From an uncultured Bacteroidota bacterium (GTDB taxonomy: Bacteria; Bacteroidota; Bacteroidia; Bacteroidales; F082), in assembly GCA_913009685.1 (NCBI GenBank), contig CAJVXP010000007.1:1-64000 (forward strand): 64,000 nucleotides of DNA. Direction: 5' to 3'. Every line of letters begins with the position of its first letter. Within the stretch, counting starts at the first letter, position 1. Below, piece by piece: positions 11,373 to 59,973 of the stretch. The notes beneath the pieces are model-generated. The model searched no databases. It saw only the letters and a list, made by a program, of their open reading frames with translations, and was not told where the DNA came from. A program made the translations under genes and the position numbers.

Positions 11373-12476
11373 TTATTTCTCCTTTGGTTTTCCGTTCAGT
11401 ATCTCCATTTGGTGGTTGATAGATTCCTGGTGGATAGCTTTGAAAGTGCGGTTGATAAACTCGCGGCTCAGCCCTTTTTTGGCTCCTTTTTCAATACTTT
11501 TGTAAATAATGTCTTCCCATCGTTTGTTTTGTAAAATACTGATATTGTTTCGTTTCTTGTACTCACCGATGGTTTCCACCACCTGCATGCGCTGTTCAAT
11601 CAGTTCCAGAAACTGATCGTCAAGCCAGTCGATTTTCCCGCGCAGCTCTTCCAGTACATTCAGCTGTCGTTCGTCTTGGGGCCGGGGACTACGTAAAACC
11701 AGTTTATCAAGCAAAATTCCCAGCTCTGCCGGAGTAATTTGCTGTTTGGCATCACTCAGCGCCACTTTAGGGTTGATGTGCGATTCAATCATCAAACCAT
11801 CAAAATTCAAATCCATGGCTTTTTGGGAAATATCCAAAAGTAAAGCGGCATCGCCACCGATATGGCTGGGATCATTCAGCATGGGGATTTCCGGCAGGCG
11901 GCTTTTCATCTCAATGGGAATCTGCCACTGGGGCAGGTTGCGATAGGTCGTTTTTTCGTAAGTTGAAAATCCGCGATGTATCAGTCCGATTTTCCGGATG
12001 CCGGCCTGGTAAATACGCTCGATGGCACCTACCCAAAGTTCCAGGTCGGGGTTCACCGGGTTTTTGATAAGGACGCCCACATCTGCGCCTTCCAGCGCAT
12101 TGGCAATCTCCTGCACGGCAAAAGGATTAGCCGTGGTACGGGCGCCGAGCCACAAAACGTCTACACCGAATTTCAGGGCTTCGTAAACATGCGTGGCATT
12201 GGCTACTTCAATAGTCAACGGCAGGCCGGTTTCTTTTTTCGCTTTTTTCAGCCAGGATAAACCTTTTGACCCGACTCCTTCAAAGCTGTTGGGACGTGTC
12301 CGTGGTTTCCAGATACCGGCACGCAGCATGTCCGTTCTGCCGGCCTTTTTTAGTCCGAGTGCTGTTTCCATAACTTGTTTTTCCGATTCGGCGCTACACG
12401 GTCCGGCTACCACAAAAGGCCGCCCGTTGTATTCTTCCCATTCAGATAAAGGTTTGATTTGCAAATTCTTTGGCAT
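11373..12476 (-). CDS. bifunctional DAHP synthase / chorismate mutase
   Basis: 367 residues. Residues 1 to about 265 are a type I DAHP synthase of the KDO8P-like class (FVVAGPCSAES, RAGIWKPRTRPNSFEG, GLIHRGFST, ESHINPKVALSDAKQQ), which joins PEP and erythrose-4-phosphate. Residues about 270-367 are an AroQ-type chorismate mutase helix bundle (LRGKIDWLDDQFLELIEQRM...EYKKRNN). This fusion is common in Bacteroidota. It is the last gene of the minus-strand Phe/Tyr operon, 12 bp after tyrA, linking entry into the shikimate route with prephenate formation. Probably controlled by the attenuator upstream of pheA. Confidence 0.94.
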   Translation of the reverse strand: MPKNLQIKPLSEWEEYNGRPFVVAGPCSAESEKQVMETALGLKKAGRTDMLRAGIWKPRTRPNSFEGVGSKGLSWLKKAKKETGLPLTIEVANATHVYEALKFGVDVLWLGARTTANPFAVQEIANALEGADVGVLIKNPVNPDLELWVGAIERIYQAGIRKIGLIHRGFSTYEKTTYRNLPQWQIPIEMKSRLPEIPMLNDPSHIGGDAALLLDISQKAMDLNFDGLMIESHINPKVALSDAKQQITPAELGILLDKLVLRSPRPQDERQLNVLEELRGKIDWLDDQFLELIEQRMQVVETIGEYKKRNNISILQNKRWEDIIYKSIEKGAKKGLSREFINRTFKAIHQESINHQMEILNGKPKEK

Positions 12477-12488
12477 GATATAACAGTT

Positions 12489-13334
12489 TTAAAGTATTTT
12501 TTGAATTTTATTGGATTCGTGAATCAGGGTTGCCAGTTGTTGATGGTCTTTTTTATCAATAGCCTCCCGGAAGCATTGTAATTTTTCAATGTAAGTGTTC
12601 AATACCTCCAGCACATAATCTGAATTCTGTTCAAAAACCGGTACCCACATTTCCGCCGAACTTTTTGCCAGCCGTACCGTGGAAGCGAAACCTCCGCTGG
12701 CGAGGTCGAGGATGCGTTTTTCATCTTTTTCCTTTTCCAGCACCGCCAGCGACAAGGCAAAAGCGGAAATGTGCGAAATATGCGACACATAAGCAGCGCT
12801 CACATCATGTTCATGCGGCTGCATGAAGATGACTTTCATGTGCAGGGTTTTGTACATTTGTTTTACCAGCGTCAGTGCTTGCGGTGCACTGTGCTCCTCG
12901 TCACAAATAATAGCCGTTTTGTAGTCGAACAACCTGCTCATGGCTGCCATTGGTCCCGAAAATTCCGTTCCTGCCATAGGATGTGAAGCCACATACTGAG
13001 CCCGGTTGGGATGACTTTGAATCTTTTGAAGAATCCCGGCTTTGGTGGAGCCCACATCGGTAATTACTTTTTCCGTGCCCTCGCAAAGTGTTAATATCTC
13101 CGGCAACAGCCTTTTAGTTACATCAATGGGAGTGGCAATGATAATCAAATCGGATTGAGATACAGCTTCTTTCAAGTCCGTGGTTTCATCCACCAACCTG
13201 CTGAGTTTGGCAATGTTTGCATGCTGCGGATTGATGTCCACGCCGACAACCTTTTGGGCAAACTCACGTTTTTTCAAATCCAGTGCCATGGAGCCGCCAA
13301 TGAGCCCGATGCCTACAATACAAACGTTTATCAT
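12489..13334 (-). CDS. tyrA: prephenate dehydrogenase
   Basis: Oxidative decarboxylation of prephenate to 4-hydroxyphenylpyruvate for tyrosine. 281 residues: Rossmann domain GIGLIGGSMALDL at 8-20, TDVGSTK, the catalytic region SHPMAGTEFSGP, and a helical dimerisation domain (SHISAFALSLAV, LASGGFASTVRLAKSS). The frame continues upstream to 13544, but MINVCIVGIG is the family N-terminus and its ATG overlaps the aminotransferase stop by 4 bp (ATGA), a sign of translational coupling. No ACT domain is present at the C-terminus. Confidence 0.94.
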   Translation of the reverse strand: MINVCIVGIGLIGGSMALDLKKREFAQKVVGVDINPQHANIAKLSRLVDETTDLKEAVSQSDLIIIATPIDVTKRLLPEILTLCEGTEKVITDVGSTKAGILQKIQSHPNRAQYVASHPMAGTEFSGPMAAMSRLFDYKTAIICDEEHSAPQALTLVKQMYKTLHMKVIFMQPHEHDVSAAYVSHISHISAFALSLAVLEKEKDEKRILDLASGGFASTVRLAKSSAEMWVPVFEQNSDYVLEVLNTYIEKLQCFREAIDKKDHQQLATLIHESNKIQKIL

Positions 13335-14515
13335 GAAAATATCTCCTGTTTGATGATTGATTTCTTTTTTATTCGTGAGGCTGCTTCCTGCAAACGGCTT
13401 TTTTCGGTGCAGAGCGAAAGACGAACGTAACGTGTTCCGCCCGAACCGAAAATAAACCCCGGACTTAGAAACACCTGATTCTTTTCCAGAATACTGTCCG
13501 AAAATTGCTCCGAACCCTGGCTTTCTCCGGGAATTTTTGCCCACACAAACATGCCCGTCTGGTTTTTATCGTAAGTGCATTGCAATGCATTTAGAATTTC
13601 AAAAGCAACATTTCTTCTCTCCCTGTAAATTTCATTCAGCTGCCGATACCAATTCCCCGGCTGCTGCAAAGCTTTCACTGCTGCCAGTTGCAACGGCTTA
13701 AACATCCCCGAATCCATGTTGCTTTTCACCTGCAAAACGGCGCTGACATATTCGGAATGACCGGCCAGCATACCCATCCGCCAGCCCGCCATGTTGTGCG
13801 ATTTGCTCAACGAATTCAGCTCCAGCGCAATCTCTTTCGCTCCCGGAATGCTCAACAAACTCAGTTGCTCTTCATTTAAAATGAAACTATACGGATTATC
13901 GTTGACAATCAAAATGTTATGACGAAGGCCAAAGGCTGTAAGCGCTGTAAAAAGTTCTGCGGAAGCCCGGGTACCGGTGGGCATGTTGGGATAATTGACC
14001 CACATGATCTTCACGCCGGACAAATCGGTTTTTTCCAGGGCATCCAAATCGGGATACCATAGGTTCGCTTCCGTTAAATCAAAATAACGAATACGTGCTC
14101 CCAGTAATCGTGCCACAGCCGAATAAGCCGGATAGCCCGGGTTGGGAATCAATACTTCGTCACCAGGATTGAGAAAAGCCATGGAAACATGCATAATTCC
14201 CTCTTTGGAACCCATCAGCGGGAGAATTTCATTTTCGGGATTCAGCTGAACGCCGAAAAATTCCCGGTACCAGTTAGCGTAAGCTTCCCGCAGTGCCGGA
14301 ATGCCGGAATAGCTTTGGTAAGCATGATTCTCCGGTTTGCGGCTTTCGCACACCACAGTTTCAATAACCTCTTCTGCCGGTGCCATATCCGGACTGCCAA
14401 TACCGAGATTTATCACGTCGATTCCCTGCTGACGTAATGCAGCGATTTCTTTGAGTTTACGCGAAAAATAGTATTCGCTGACAACTTCCAGTCGGTGTGC
14501 CGTTTTAATTTTCAT
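13331..14515 (-). CDS. class I/II aminotransferase (probable aromatic aminotransferase)
   Basis: PLP enzyme of 394 residues with fold-type I motifs: INLGIGSPD (substrate end), NYPNMPTG, VNDNPYS (D206/Y209 contact the cofactor) and SLSKSHNMAGWRMG with Schiff-base K238. It resembles LL-diaminopimelate and aspartate aminotransferases, but its place between pheA and tyrA suggests it transaminates phenylpyruvate and 4-hydroxyphenylpyruvate. The ATG at 14515 has an AAGGAGG site, strong for this genome, and the gene overlaps the pheA end by 11 bp. An upstream ATG at 14536 lies before that site. Confidence 0.9.
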   Translation of the reverse strand: MKIKTAHRLEVVSEYYFSRKLKEIAALRQQGIDVINLGIGSPDMAPAEEVIETVVCESRKPENHAYQSYSGIPALREAYANWYREFFGVQLNPENEILPLMGSKEGIMHVSMAFLNPGDEVLIPNPGYPAYSAVARLLGARIRYFDLTEANLWYPDLDALEKTDLSGVKIMWVNYPNMPTGTRASAELFTALTAFGLRHNILIVNDNPYSFILNEEQLSLLSIPGAKEIALELNSLSKSHNMAGWRMGMLAGHSEYVSAVLQVKSNMDSGMFKPLQLAAVKALQQPGNWYRQLNEIYRERRNVAFEILNALQCTYDKNQTGMFVWAKIPGESQGSEQFSDSILEKNQVFLSPGFIFGSGGTRYVRLSLCTEKSRLQEAASRIKKKSIIKQEIFS

Positions 14516-15356
14516 GAACTTTCCCTCCTTTCTCATACTCTCCCAAAATAGTTAATTCGCTGAGCAACGGCCTAATGGCATCCAGCGACTGGCGATATTT
14601 TTCGTAGCCGGAAAAATCAACATCCACATAAAAAAGATATTCCCACTCCTGTCCGACAATGGGTAACGACTGTATTTTGGTAATGTTGATTTTGTAAAAC
14701 GACAATACGGAAAGCACATCCGAAAGCCGGCCCTGCTGATGCGGCAAAACAAAACAGAGCGACGCTTTGTTGATTTGCTGTCCGTTTAAGTGACTTTGGT
14801 AATTTTCTTCGTGCGAAACAATCAGAAAACGAGTGTAATTCATTTTATTGGTTTCGATATTTTCAGCCAGTATGTCGAGGTTGTACAGCTTTGCAGCCAG
14901 CCGGCTGGCGATGGCAGCTACCCCTTTCATGTTTCCTTCGCTAATCCATTTTGCGCTCAGCGCGGTATCTTCCGAATCGACCAGCTGAACACCTTTTCTG
15001 CGCATGGGCGTTAGAAACTCGCGGCATTGCTGCAAAGCCATTGGATGTGAATAGACTTTTTTGATGTCGTCCGGTGTTTGATCGGGAAGCGCCAGCAGGT
15101 GTTGTTTTATACGCAAATACACCTCACCGAGGATGCGTAACCCCGACTCACGCAATAGCGTATAGTTGGGCAGAATACTTCCAACTATGGAGTTTTCGAT
15201 AGCCACCATGCCGTAATCGGCCTCTTGAAACCGCAAAGCATCAAATAGTTCGTTAAAAGATGCACACGGAACCGTTTCATATGCTTCCCCTTTAAAATAT
15301 TTCCGAATGGCTATTTCGTGAAAAGCTCCTCGTACACCCTGCATGGCTATTTTCAT
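14505..15356 (-). CDS. pheA: prephenate dehydratase
   Basis: Converts prephenate to phenylpyruvate. 283 residues: periplasmic-binding-like catalytic part (MQGVRGAFHE, VAIENSIVGS, YSHPMALQQC) with the catalytic NYTRF at 173-177, then an ACT domain at about 198-275 for feedback by phenylalanine. The usual ESRP in the ACT domain reads QSLP here. First structural gene of the four-gene operon; its ATG lies about 20 nt after the attenuator terminator at 15375-15408. Confidence 0.95.
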   Translation of the reverse strand: MKIAMQGVRGAFHEIAIRKYFKGEAYETVPCASFNELFDALRFQEADYGMVAIENSIVGSILPNYTLLRESGLRILGEVYLRIKQHLLALPDQTPDDIKKVYSHPMALQQCREFLTPMRRKGVQLVDSEDTALSAKWISEGNMKGVAAIASRLAAKLYNLDILAENIETNKMNYTRFLIVSHEENYQSHLNGQQINKASLCFVLPHQQGRLSDVLSVLSFYKINITKIQSLPIVGQEWEYLFYVDVDFSGYEKYRQSLDAIRPLLSELTILGEYEKGGKVHEN

Positions 15357-15374
15357 ATTCCTTTTATTTTATTC

Positions 15375-15408
15375 AAAAAAAAAAGTCCCGAACAACATTC
15401 GGGACTTT
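15375..15408 (-). terminator. attenuator terminator upstream of pheA
   Basis: Read on the minus strand, AAGTCCCGAA (15407-15398) pairs with TTCGGGACTT (15392-15383) around loop TGTTG and is followed by an uninterrupted T-run. It sits between the leader peptide ORF and pheA, so it must be read through for the operon to be expressed. Confidence 0.92.
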
Positions 15409-15457
15409 TTATGATATTGTTTAATTATTTTATTGACGTCAAACCATATACAGCCCC
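15401..15457 (-). promoter_or_regulatory. predicted antiterminator pairing of the pheA leader
   Basis: On the minus-strand RNA, GGGGCUGUAUAUGGU (15457-15443) can pair with AUAUCAUAAAAAGUCCC (15417-15401), about 13 of 15 positions including G-U. The second partner contains the first arm of the terminator, so the two structures exclude each other. The first partner is also the 3' arm of a long hairpin formed by the Phe/Tyr codon region. Confidence 0.65.
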
Positions 15458-15519
15458 TTAATACTTTTAAAATAAAAGTAATAAAAGCTGTAAAAAAAGA
15501 TGTTTGACCTGTTAAGCAT
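15439..15519 (-). CDS. Phe/Tyr leader peptide of the pheA operon
   Basis: A 26-codon ORF whose residues 8-17 read FFYSFYYFYF: nine of ten are Phe or Tyr (five Phe, four Tyr), with another Tyr at 24. It starts 24 nt after a TTTG-N18-TACTTTTG promoter and ends 31 nt before the terminator's first arm. The operon it precedes makes both phenylalanine and tyrosine. By the known logic of amino-acid attenuators, ribosomes stalled at these codons for lack of charged tRNA-Phe or tRNA-Tyr would free the antiterminator strand. Too short for usual gene callers. Confidence 0.85.
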   Translation of the reverse strand: MLNRSNIFFYSFYYFYFKSIKGLYMV

Positions 15520-15543
15520 TCTTTTTGATTTGTTTTAATACGG

Positions 15544-15573
15544 CAAAAGTAGATAAATATTTTTTATATCAAA
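15544..15573 (-). promoter_or_regulatory. promoter of the pheA operon
   Basis: On the minus strand TTTG (15573-15570), an 18-bp spacer, then TACTTTTG (15551-15544). This fits the Bacteroidota -33/-7 consensus well and lies just before the leader peptide. Confidence 0.75.
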
Positions 15574-15629
15574 ATATAAGCCGTGTTTTTTTAAAATTTA
15601 TCAAAGTATTCCGGATGATTCCTCCTGTG

Positions 15630-16253
15630 TTATGGAATAAAATTCCATCCGGGAACCTTATAAGCTTTGTTTTTTAATGCTTTATTTATGACTATGTATG
15701 ATTTTATGCTTCCTTTATAATAGCCGGTAACGGTTTTTCCGCCATAAGTTTTACAATCGAAAGTTATCTCATAATCGTTTCCGCTCTTTTTTACCGAAAA
15801 GGTTCCGGCATTCATTTCAACCTCTGTGCCTACTTCAGTTGCAGAGTTATAATCAAAAACAGCATCTGAATATTGAAATGTTCCCGGATTTTCCAAGGAT
15901 AATGAATCAAATACATATTGACCTTCATCCAGTTTGTCCTGACTGGCAGAAAAAGCTTCAAATACAATTCCGGATCCGGTTCCGGATATGGAATCAACAA
16001 TTCCACCAACTTCATGGAGTGTAAATCCTGATGAAATAAGTAAAAGGCTTATAGGGTATCCCTGAACCGTGCCGGTAAGATGTGCCTGCTTTGTTCCGAA
16101 ATCGCCGGAGAAAATGCCTCCACTGGATAGGTCATATTCTTTGTTGTCATATTTTATGTAATTCTTTGTTGAATTATCAGCTTTTTTGGTGCAACCCATA
16201 AACAGAATACTCAGAAAGAATAAGCCGAAAGTAATTTTTAATAGATTTTTCAT
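15630..16253 (-). CDS. lipoprotein of unknown function
   Basis: 207 residues with a lipoprotein signal peptide ending LFMGC (lipobox, Cys at 21). The mature part is rich in Gly, Ser, Thr and aromatic residues with alternating strand-like segments (AHLTGTVQGYPISLLLI; GNDYEITFDCKTYGGKTVTGYYKGSI), suggesting a small all-beta domain on the outer side of a membrane. I do not recognise the family. It stands alone between dsbD and the pheA leader. Confidence 0.75.
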   Translation of the reverse strand: MKNLLKITFGLFFLSILFMGCTKKADNSTKNYIKYDNKEYDLSSGGIFSGDFGTKQAHLTGTVQGYPISLLLISSGFTLHEVGGIVDSISGTGSGIVFEAFSASQDKLDEGQYVFDSLSLENPGTFQYSDAVFDYNSATEVGTEVEMNAGTFSVKKSGNDYEITFDCKTYGGKTVTGYYKGSIKSYIVINKALKNKAYKVPGWNFIP

Positions 16254-58279: not shown

Positions 58280-58287
58280 TACATTTG
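58280..58287 (+). promoter_or_regulatory. -7 box TACATTTG of the leu operon
   Basis: Exact consensus. The leader-peptide ATG at 58293 is only 5 nt further, so transcription should start at or beside it. No -33 TTTG at normal spacing. Confidence 0.6.
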
Positions 58288-58292
58288 TCCCC

Positions 58293-58361
58293 ATGATTAT
58301 GGACAGTCACAACAACATAAGGAGATTTATTCTATCGGCACTTATTATTATGAGGTGTTGA
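58293..58361 (+). CDS. Ile/Leu leader peptide of the leu operon
   Basis: A 22-codon ORF, MIMDSHNN...RRFILSALIIMRC, with in-frame ATGs at 58293 and 58299 and TGA at 58359-58361. Four Ile and two Leu codons fall in its last 14 residues. It lies between a -7 box and a terminator in front of leuA, the standard place for an attenuator leader. The codon bias toward Ile and Leu is clear but weaker than in the pheA leader, so the call is moderate. Confidence 0.65.
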   Translation: MIMDSHNNIRRFILSALIIMRC

Positions 58362-58363
58362 AA

Positions 58364-58404
58364 GGGATTTTTGTAAACTGTTGCTAAAATGATACAAACT
58401 TCCC
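58364..58404 (+). promoter_or_regulatory. predicted antiterminator pairing of the leu leader
   Basis: GGGAUUUUUGU (58364-58374), starting 2 nt after the leader stop, can pair with ACAAACUUCCC (58394-58404) at 9 of 11 positions. The second partner includes the first arm of the terminator, so the structures exclude each other. Confidence 0.55.
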
Positions 58405-58429
58405 GCCGAAAACGGGAAGTTTTTTTTTG
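58396..58429 (+). terminator. attenuator terminator upstream of leuA
   Basis: AAACTTCCCG (58396-58405) pairs perfectly with CGGGAAGTTT (58413-58422) around a 7-nt loop and runs into T9. It lies 51 nt before the leuA ATG and has no other gene to end, which marks it as an attenuator. Confidence 0.9.
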
Positions 58430-58479: not shown

Positions 58480-59973
58480 ATGAGTGAGAAGATCATTGTT
58501 TTTGATACTACCCTCCGGGATGGTGAACAGGTCCCCGGCTGTCAGTTAAATACCGTGGAAAAAATTGAAGTGGCCAGAGCTCTTGAGCTATTGGGAGTAG
58601 ATGTGATTGAAGCCGGGTTTCCCATCTCCAGTCCCGGCGACTTTCATTCGGTGGTCGAAATTTCAAAAGCCGTAACCAAACCAGTGATTTGCGGGCTTAC
58701 CCGTGCTGTGGAAAAAGATATTGATGTGGCCGCCGAAGCGCTTCAGTATGCCAAAAGGAAACGCATCCATACGGGTATCGGCACTTCTCCTTATCACATC
58801 AAATATAAGCTGAATTCTACTCCTGATAAAATTATGGAGCGGGCTGTGGCAGCGGTAAAATATGCCAAAAAGTTTGTGGAAGATGTAGAGTTTTATGCCG
58901 AAGATGCCGGTCGCAGCGATAACGAATATCTTGCAAGAGTAGTCGAAGCCGTCATTGCTGCCGGTGCCACGGTGGTGAATATCCCGGATACTACCGGCTA
59001 CTGCCTGCCGCATGAATTCGGAGAAAAAATCCGTTACCTCATGGAAAATGTTTCCAATGTCCACAAGGCCGTTATTTCCACGCATTGCCATAACGATCTG
59101 GGTATGGCCACAGCCAACACCATCGAAGGTGTGCTCAACGGTGCCAGGCAGGTGGAAGTAACTTTAAACGGCATTGGTGAGCGTGCCGGAAACACTTCTC
59201 TGGAAGAGGTGGTCATGATTTTAAAAAGCCACAAAAACCTGCCCGTTTACACGGAAATCAACACCAAACAGATATACAAAACCAGCAGGCTGGTCTCTTC
59301 ACTCATGAACATGCCTATTCAACCTAACAAGGCCATTGTGGGTAGAAATGCTTTTGCCCATTCCTCTGGAATTCATCAGGATGGGGTGTTGAAAAACCGT
59401 GAAAATTACGAAATCATTAATCCCAAAGATGTGGGGATTAAAGAATCAAGTATTCAGCTGACGGCACGGAGTGGTCGTGCAGCCCTGAAACACCGGCTGA
59501 AAATCCTTGGTTATGATTTTAGCAAAGATGAAATTGATAAGATCTACGATCGTTTCCTGGCTTTAGCCGATAAAAAGAAAGACATCAAAGATGATGATTT
59601 GAGGGCTTTGGTGGGGAAAGCTGCCCGGGAAGACCGGGCGATAAAACTGGAACTGTTGCAGGTGGTTTGTGGTAAATCGTCTGTTCCTATGGCCACGGTA
59701 CGGCTGAAAATAAACAATGAAATCCATTCGGCCACCGCTTCGGGAAACGGTCCTATTGATGCAGCTTTTACTGCTGTAAAACAGCTTGTTAAAAGAAAAG
59801 TTAATCTGGAAGAGTTTCTTATTCAAGCTATTACACGTGGTAGCGATGACCTTGGGAAAGTGCATGTTCAGATTGAAAACCGGGGAAAATTATACTATGG
59901 TTTTTCTGCCAGCACCGATATTATTACAGGAGCTGTAGAGGCTTTTGTGGATGCTATTTCAAAAATAATTTAA
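58480..59973 (+). CDS. leuA: 2-isopropylmalate synthase
   Basis: First step of leucine synthesis: 2-oxoisovalerate plus acetyl-CoA. 497 residues. N-terminal HMGL-type TIM barrel: [72 protein letters not shown], and [10 protein letters not shown]. The C-terminal regulatory LeuA domain (from about 365, [30 protein letters not shown]) gives leucine feedback. First structural gene after the attenuator. Confidence 0.95.

Follow-up and report, generated by a model that had tools for sequence, protein, structure and literature searches.

The locus analyzed here, from an uncultured Bacteroidota bacterium, raises the question of how a set of genes for phenylalanine and tyrosine synthesis is controlled, and of what the short region ahead of its first gene, pheA, contributes to that control. 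The stretch of DNA comprises 64,000 nt, and the whole of it is referred to below as the window. We consider it very likely that the region ahead of pheA is a ribosome-mediated transcription attenuator, which senses charged tRNA-Phe and tRNA-Tyr together. The computation supports the leader ORF, its conservation and reading frame, the terminator, the matching antiterminator, and a switch between the paired states where the aromatic cluster ends; the start site, the translation of the leader, the stalling, the coupling of ribosome and polymerase, and the amino-acid response are what we infer.

The pheA operon and the parts of its leader

Analysis of the minus strand reveals four adjacent genes: pheA, encoding prephenate dehydratase (14505..15356; PF00800, with the NCBIfam prephenate dehydratase models below their cut-offs), a gene for a class I/II aminotransferase (13331..14515, with an alternative in-frame start at 14536; PF00155, with no NCBIfam model above its cut-off), tyrA, encoding prephenate dehydrogenase (12489..13334; PF02153 and PF20463, with NF006307 above its cut-off), and a gene for a DAHP synthase fused to a type II chorismate mutase (11373..12476; domain matches PF00793 and PF01817). 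Judging from its context, the aminotransferase is probably an aromatic one. There are overlaps of 11 nt between the first two genes and of 4 nt between the aminotransferase gene and tyrA, and a gap of 12 nt separates tyrA from the fourth gene, thus the four genes look like one operon. Such an operon fits a combined Phe and Tyr signal, in agreement with the sequence-only reading of this DNA, which held that the codons of the leader match the two products of the operon. In the loci analyzed, pheA and the aminotransferase gene come first, and the order of the tyrA and DAHP synthase-chorismate mutase genes behind them varies: tyrA is third in the window and in near relatives, and the prephenate dehydrogenase domain (PF02153) is found in the fourth place in L012 and L032. 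A close relative also has a cobalamin riboswitch (90.6 bits; L004, 2700-2888, minus strand) in the vicinity of its pheA operon. In several genomes of other classes (L054, L058, G133, G184, G236) the open frame that contains pheA is 668-719 aa long; in L054 and L058 the match to the DAHP synthase-chorismate mutase begins ~920-990 nt past the pheA start, and a fusion of the two proteins is possible there.

The leader region is bounded by an upstream gene ending at 15630 and by the ATG of pheA at 15356, and all its elements lie on the minus strand. The promoter proposed in the sequence-only reading, TTTG-N18-TACTTTTG, was found at the claimed place (15573-15544): an element resembling a -33 box, TTTG (15570..15573), is separated by 18 nt from a -7 box of the type TAnnTTTG (TACTTTTG, 15544..15551). 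We take these elements to represent the -33/-7 promoter consensus of Bacteroidota; a scan with the sigma-70 consensus gave no match at this site. Among 133 loci with a leader, TAnnTTTG is found in 93, versus 10.6 in base-shuffled copies, with the end of the box at a median of 22 nt upstream of the leader ATG, and the complete motif TTG-N17-22-TAnnTTTG is found within 110 nt upstream of the ATG in 65, versus 0.95 in base-shuffled copies. The enrichment of these motifs makes a transcription start some 15-20 nt upstream of the leader likely.

The leader-peptide ORF of 26 aa (MLNRSNIFFYSFYYFYFKSIKGLYMV, 15439..15519) has nine Phe/Tyr residues, at positions 8-10 and 12-17, just as had been read from the sequence, and an additional Tyr at position 24; the presumed regulatory codons are codons 8-17 (F F Y S F Y Y F Y F; 15469..15498). 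The codon-rich stretch also forms the hairpin ascribed to it, TACTTTTA-TTT-TAAAAGTA (15462..15480), with 8 bp and the loop TTT. The minimum-free-energy structure of the RNA contains a wider protector structure (15438..15508), in which about 15508-15482 pairs with 15469-15438. Within the 3' end of the ORF lies the antiterminator strand (strand 2), GGGGCTGTATATGGT (15443..15457), whose partner, ATATCATAAAAAGTCCC (15401..15417), overlaps the 5' arm of a strong intrinsic terminator located just ahead of pheA (15380..15410; 14 bp, -17.6 kcal/mol, U tail 15379-15375), again as the sequence-only reading had it.

A short ORF rich in codons for the products, by which leader-peptide attenuators are recognized, is thus present in the sequence, and its translation is predicted. 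When the 300 nt upstream of pheA were shuffled 20,000 times with dinucleotides preserved, the best short ORF starting with ATG had seven Phe/Tyr per ten residues (in 41 shuffles), as compared to nine in the real ORF. The Phe/Tyr count alone is weaker than the count combined with the RNA anatomy and conservation, because the window contains seven further ATG starts of short ORFs with six or seven Phe/Tyr in ten residues (two of these starts are nested). Six consecutive Phe/Tyr codons, tried as a genome-wide search pattern, were discarded for having no power alone (31 matches versus 49 for the backward control). With other Phe/Tyr-rich starts present and the bare pattern not enriched, the leader ORF counts because of its position and surroundings. 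The other Phe/Tyr-rich ORFs of the window, together with the fact that intergenic terminators are ordinary, would agree with there being no regulation at all, the hairpin being the terminator of the upstream gene and the aromatic ORF a chance product of AT-rich DNA. We regard this explanation as scarcely credible, since the promoter-like element and the ORF sit between the upstream gene and the terminator, none of the 20,000 shuffles matches the ORF, and the leader recurs in relatives with matched pairing.

The composition of the leader peptides was analyzed across relatives. In 156 loci (ATG starts only, 300 nt, with L036 and L087, which have no upstream sequence, scored as leaderless) the number of Phe/Tyr per locus is two-peaked, with 37 loci at 0-4, none at 5, and 119 at 6-10; six or more Phe/Tyr are reached in 42 of 3,120 shuffled sequences and on the reverse strand in 2 of the 156 loci. 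A survey of ATG-initiated leaders over 185 loci (again including L036 and L087 as leaderless) yielded 134 peptides, of which 132 contain both Phe and Tyr and two are without Tyr. Among 126 distinct peptides, the densest 10-codon segments contain 8.05 TTY/TAY codons in frame versus 2.67 and 2.49 off frame, an excess which is partly built in, as the segments were selected for Phe/Tyr; the selection does not account for the scarcity of Leu, nor for the occurrence of both third bases (TTT, TTC, TAT and TAC are all found). The residues of these segments include 602 Phe, 412 Tyr, 52 Ser, 41 Asn, 15 Trp and 5 Leu. The surplus of Phe over Tyr and the two peptides devoid of Tyr could be taken to mean that the leader senses Phe only, like the pheA leader of E. 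coli, with the Tyr codons as passengers that look alike (TAY beside TTY) or as a mere means of tuning the speed of translation. This is unlikely, as nearly all peptides have both amino acids, Tyr far exceeds every residue other than Phe, Leu, which is equally near to Phe in its codons, is almost missing, and the operon includes tyrA, a shared aminotransferase, and DAHP synthase.

The antiterminator, the terminator, and the position of the ribosome

The leader RNA folds with -40.5 kcal/mol versus -21.9 +/- 3.3 in shuffles (z -5.6; none of 200 as good). An intrinsic terminator lies between the leader ORF and the first gene, as expected of an attenuator, and this arrangement is shared by relatives: among 203 usable loci, a terminator of -8 kcal/mol or better in the fixed 150 nt upstream of pheA was found in 134 of 140 loci with a leader versus 11 of 63 leaderless ones. 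Among the loci with ATG-initiated leaders it is present in 132 of 134.

A MAFFT alignment of seven near relatives was rejected as a basis for the analysis of pairing, because it shifted the terminator arm by one column between rows; the pairing was therefore measured by anchored helices and swaps. The 132 terminator-bearing loci were reduced to 128 distinct ones by dropping identical rows only, with kinship otherwise ignored, and some genomes enter twice, as a named and an unnamed locus (e.g. L018 and L072, which have the same peptide, look like one genome). With the best alignment sought equally for real and swapped pairs, the antiterminator strand pairs with the terminator arm of its own locus at -14.69 kcal/mol and with those of other loci at -9.42 kcal/mol, and none of 10,000 permutations equalled the real sum. 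Because the GGGAC/GUCCC core is common to many loci, no more than 52 of the 128 own pairings rank among the top 5% of the swaps, and 3 are worse than the median. The three core positions are paired in 123 of 126, 127 of 127, and 124 of 127 loci, a high share that is partly built in, because the core was picked as the best helix; all four Watson-Crick pair types are seen at two of the three positions, and whole cores vary (GAGGTGGG with CCCACCTC, GGCAGGA with TCCTGCC, CGAGGCTTT with AAAGCCTCG). The covariation analysis that the sequence-only reading had proposed for the region upstream of pheA thus comes out in its favor: paired bases of the antiterminator and the terminator co-vary across the 128 distinct loci, which upholds the claim that 15457-15443 can pair with 15417-15401. 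Both the swap test and the pair types show an antiterminator that excludes the terminator and is maintained by compensating changes. The hairpin of the codon-rich stretch is likewise matched within loci (-5.74 kcal/mol for itself versus -4.33 kcal/mol when swapped; 122 loci, 6 of the 128 being left out; 0 of 10,000 permutations).

In 114 distinct loci the antiterminator strand begins at a median of 9 nt past the end of the aromatic cluster and extends to about the stop codon. Each leader was folded up to the apex of the terminator with a ribosome footprint masking -15 to +12 nt of the A site (126 loci, as in two of the 128 the strand is more than 25 nt off); the model is purely thermodynamic, with no rates, and ribosome-polymerase coupling is assumed in it. 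When the A site occupies one of the ten codons up to and including the last aromatic one, the antiterminator has a mean probability of 0.89-0.96, which falls to 0.56, 0.32, 0.20 and 0.13 at one to four codons beyond it (n decreasing from 126 to 116); with the A site on the stop codon it is 0.26. Between 11 and 14 codons beyond the last aromatic one it climbs again, from 0.38 to 0.93 (n from 46 to 7), because in long leaders the ribosome gets beyond the strand. In the window the probability is 1.0 from Ile7 to Phe17, 0.02 at Lys18, and at most 0.17 onward to the stop codon. Changing the footprint by +/-3 nt shifts the switch point by about one codon. In this thermodynamic model, therefore, a stall frees the antiterminator strand and completion of the ORF masks it, as the attenuator mechanism demands.

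The sequence of events that we propose is as follows. Transcription would begin at about 15539-15536, and a ribosome following RNA polymerase would start translating the 26-codon leader. With either tRNA-Phe or tRNA-Tyr poorly charged, the ribosome would stall within codons 8-17, leaving the GGGGCU...AUGGU strand free to pair with AUCAU...AGUCCC, a segment that takes in the terminator's 5' arm; formation of this antiterminator would block the terminator and allow readthrough into pheA-aminotransferase-tyrA-aroF/aroQ. With both tRNAs charged, the ribosome would reach the stop codon (15439) and cover the strand, the terminator (15410-15380) would form, and transcription would stop before pheA. 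Without a ribosome, the protector structure of the window RNA would likewise permit termination. In the folding model the probability of the antiterminator in the ribosome-free window RNA is 0.07, because the protector structure hides the antiterminator strand. Among the 126 loci, the ribosome-free value is below 0.3 in 23, 0.3-0.7 in 15, and above 0.7 in 88, therefore termination without translation is not general. Superattenuation was accordingly rejected as a general trait and is retained for this window only, as the protector state is not shared by all leaders.

The same ribosome positions would operate the same RNA switch if the ribosome were halted not by uncharged tRNA, but by the nascent peptide or by some other effect of the aromatic chain, and the conservation of a dense aromatic chain agrees with this possibility. 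In TnaC-like systems the arrest is indeed caused by the nascent peptide itself; known arrest peptides have fixed residues. The order and number of the aromatic residues and their flanks differ among the loci (126 distinct peptides), no other fixed residue is seen in the listed leader peptides, and codons matched to the products suffice as an explanation, hence peptide arrest appears quite improbable. Even more doubtful is a leader RNA that senses a metabolite or a protein and thereby drives the terminator, with the ORF incidental. Its appeal lies in the fold, which is far better than in shuffles, and in the conserved pairing. It would leave unexplained the conserved frame and residues of the ORF and the start of the antiterminator strand at just the distance from the codons that a ribosome requires, and none of the Rfam matches in the window attains the gathering score of its family.

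Distribution of the leader among Bacteroidota

To be counted as a leader, an ORF had to comprise 8-60 codons, start with ATG or GTG, contain at least six Phe/Tyr in ten residues, and lie within 400 nt of pheA. The pheA loci were taken from contigs of named genomes (38 loci), from a phylum sample of 296 genomes (258 with pheA, the own genome included), and from an order sample of 119 genomes (49 with pheA, the own genome included), with further DNA from 29 sampled genomes. The 49 loci of the order comprise 48 from the order sample and one from the phylum sample, and L001 is the window itself. Upstream DNA from the phylum sample covers all 66 class-mates outside the order, 2 order-mates, the own genome, and 50 of the 189 genomes of other classes.

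A leader precedes pheA in 36 of 38 named loci (e.g. in Carboxylicivirga, Alkaliflexus, Geofilum, Saccharicrinis, Paludibacter, Segatella albensis and Prevotella bins) and in 44 of 49 loci of the order. Of the 66 class-mates from outside the order, 54 have a leader, but the 50 genomes of other classes, which were chosen non-randomly, down the score list, include only 5 carriers. The leaderless counts include L036 (named) and L087 (order), in which the contig ends and there is no sequence upstream of pheA; among the positives L031 is borderline, with exactly six Phe/Tyr and a pheA without the operon, and may be a chance match. The sequence-only reading would have been contradicted by relatives that lack the aromatic ORF and the paired terminator and antiterminator; instead, 140 of the 203 usable loci possess the leader, and 134 of these 140 the terminator.

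The missing leaders can be accounted for in part. In 8 of the 12 leaderless class-mates (L177-L184), pheA is only 30-35% identical, and the 1.5 kb available behind it show no match to the aminotransferase. In three others (L125, L126, L128) the 260 nt upstream of pheA resemble the end of another gene, which we presume to be aroA, and leave no room for a leader, and in L131 coding-like sequence extends nearly up to pheA. Within the order, L162 and L175 have no good aminotransferase match adjoining pheA, L173 was counted as leaderless and has a shorter leader (four Phe/Tyr) and a terminator, and L161 has kept the operon with no leader visible. Since leaderless loci are mostly those without an adjoining aminotransferase gene, the leader mostly travels with the pheA-aminotransferase operon. 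The five carriers from other classes (L045, L049, L054, L113, L114) have pheA at 44-49% identity; their occurrence suggests either a transfer of the operon together with its attenuator or a deeper origin. A search of viral contigs found no relative.

Within the order we found no pheA match in 70 of 119 genomes (59 of 105 near-complete ones), the family-mate G395 included, therefore Phe auxotrophy or the use of another enzyme may be common near this lineage.

Known attenuators and other candidate leaders of the genome

Textbook leader-peptide attenuation comes from Proteobacteria, and in the pheA and trp leaders of gammaproteobacteria an ORF of product codons is combined with an antiterminator and a terminator that exclude each other. 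Vitreschak and others surveyed attenuators in 2004, reportedly with Bacteroidetes included. The leader described here resembles the gammaproteobacterial pheA and trp attenuators (RF01859, RF00513) in its short ORF rich in product codons and in the exclusive antiterminator and terminator, and it stands ahead of pheA, like the gammaproteobacterial pheA leader (RF01859). It differs in addressing two amino acids instead of one, in having the antiterminator strand in the tail of the ORF itself, and in the protector structure, which only some members possess.

Neither of these Rfam families recognizes the leader at its gathering score (Phe_leader RF01859, 21.8 bits versus 55, E 0.21; Trp_leader RF00513, 21.0 bits versus 41), and for Bacteroid-trp (RF01692) and the T-box there is no gathering match in the window and none at E <= 1 in 15300-15650. 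A relaxed Rfam search returned 18 weak matches on both strands, all below gathering, and those over the terminator include matches to Thr, Phe, Trp and Leu leaders; we do not consider them evidence of membership. The Bacteroid-trp RNA (Rfam RF01692), which appears in Table 1 in the available part of PMC2864571, is like the pheA leader a cis-regulatory leader in Bacteroidota, and differs from it in responding to tryptophan and preceding another operon.

The sequence-only reading regarded a dual Phe/Tyr leader in a bacteroidote as little described, and this view has to be narrowed. A putative attenuator before pheA > hisHb > aroAI-beta-aroQ > tyrA of Bacteroides thetaiotaomicron was listed in 2005 (PMC1173090, Table 7, from the web site of E. 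Merino), and it is very probably the same element in another species, with the same operon and in the same phylum; as far as the accessible text of that paper goes, the entry gives no leader peptide, codons or spread, and the term 'leader peptide' does not occur. For Flavobacterium psychrophilum, strong clues to leader-peptide attenuation before amino-acid operons were reported in 2021 (PMC9723704), together with a structured 5' element of pheA common to this species and other Flavobacteriaceae; the gene and the phylum are the same as here, the element was described for a single family, and the portion of the article at hand names no Phe/Tyr codons and links no peptide to it. For B. thetaiotaomicron, long 5' UTRs were said to contain short ORFs reminiscent of leader peptides (PMC7366714, available in part). 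Likewise in the available part of a five-genome study (PMC6429828), uORFs containing Phe and Tyr codons were described before shikimate genes, that is, before aromatic-pathway genes as here, and the genomes named are not Bacteroidota. According to the accessible text of a 2010 survey, leader-peptide attenuation had, to its authors' knowledge, been unshown outside Proteobacteria and Actinobacteria before its own case from Firmicutes (PMC2965389). In the accessible text of that survey and of PMC3766115, PMC1262725, PMC8305728 and PMC8040213 we found no Phe/Tyr leader in Bacteroidota. The part of the claim that stands is that the dual Phe/Tyr leader peptide and its spread in Bacteroidota did not appear in the literature search, which is weak evidence of novelty, since most subscription papers were outside its reach. 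The leader is a conserved attenuator of classical mechanism, and an attenuator at the pheA operon had been listed earlier; what is added here is the strength of the double specificity, the matched switch, and the spread through most of the sampled class.

The same genome contains further candidate leaders. A candidate Trp leader, MNKMNLNNNWWWLFFVRN (with WWW), and a terminator are located ahead of a trpE-like gene (TIGR00564, 424 bits, cut-off 518), and together they represent the best Bacteroid-trp match of the genome (47.2 bits versus the cut-off of 49). A candidate His leader, MKRLFMHHHHLHPHPLR (reverse strand, ATG at 1325 of the reverse complement of L196), and a terminator precede hisG (TIGR00070 above cut-off). 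Within the window, a short ORF on the plus strand, MIMDSHNNIRRFILSALIIMRC (58293-58361), is followed by a terminator (58396-58422, a 27-nt hairpin with a U run) and by leuA at 58480 (TIGR00973 above cut-off); MIMDSHNNIRRFILSALIIMRC and its terminator probably form an attenuator with a Leu/Ile leader peptide. For these three leaders the folding model gives a less clear-cut picture than for the pheA leader: the probability of the antiterminator weakens only at the last codons of the Leu/Ile leader (from 1.0 to 0.45-0.62), drops only at the stop codon of the Trp leader (from 0.95 to 0.53), and shows no fall in the His leader (0.94).

A TACATTTG box ends five bases before the ATG of both the Trp leader (L219, 1508-1520) and the Leu/Ile leader (window, 58280-58292), therefore these two ORFs may come from leaderless transcripts. 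In this they differ from the pheA and His leaders.

We think it likely that the dual Phe/Tyr attenuator, passed on along with the pheA operon in most of the class, is the default control of aromatic amino-acid synthesis there. Taken together with the Trp, His and probable Leu/Ile leaders of the same genome, this would make ribosome sensing an old and general way of amino-acid control in these bacteria, with the leading ribosome and RNA polymerase keeping in step on the leaders. With such a leader one promoter could serve an operon with two end products, as a shortage of either amino acid would open the operon. An attenuator of dual specificity, shared by most sampled members of one Bacteroidota class, would be a natural reporter of the supply of Phe and Tyr, and could serve as a test for the coupling of transcription and translation in that class.
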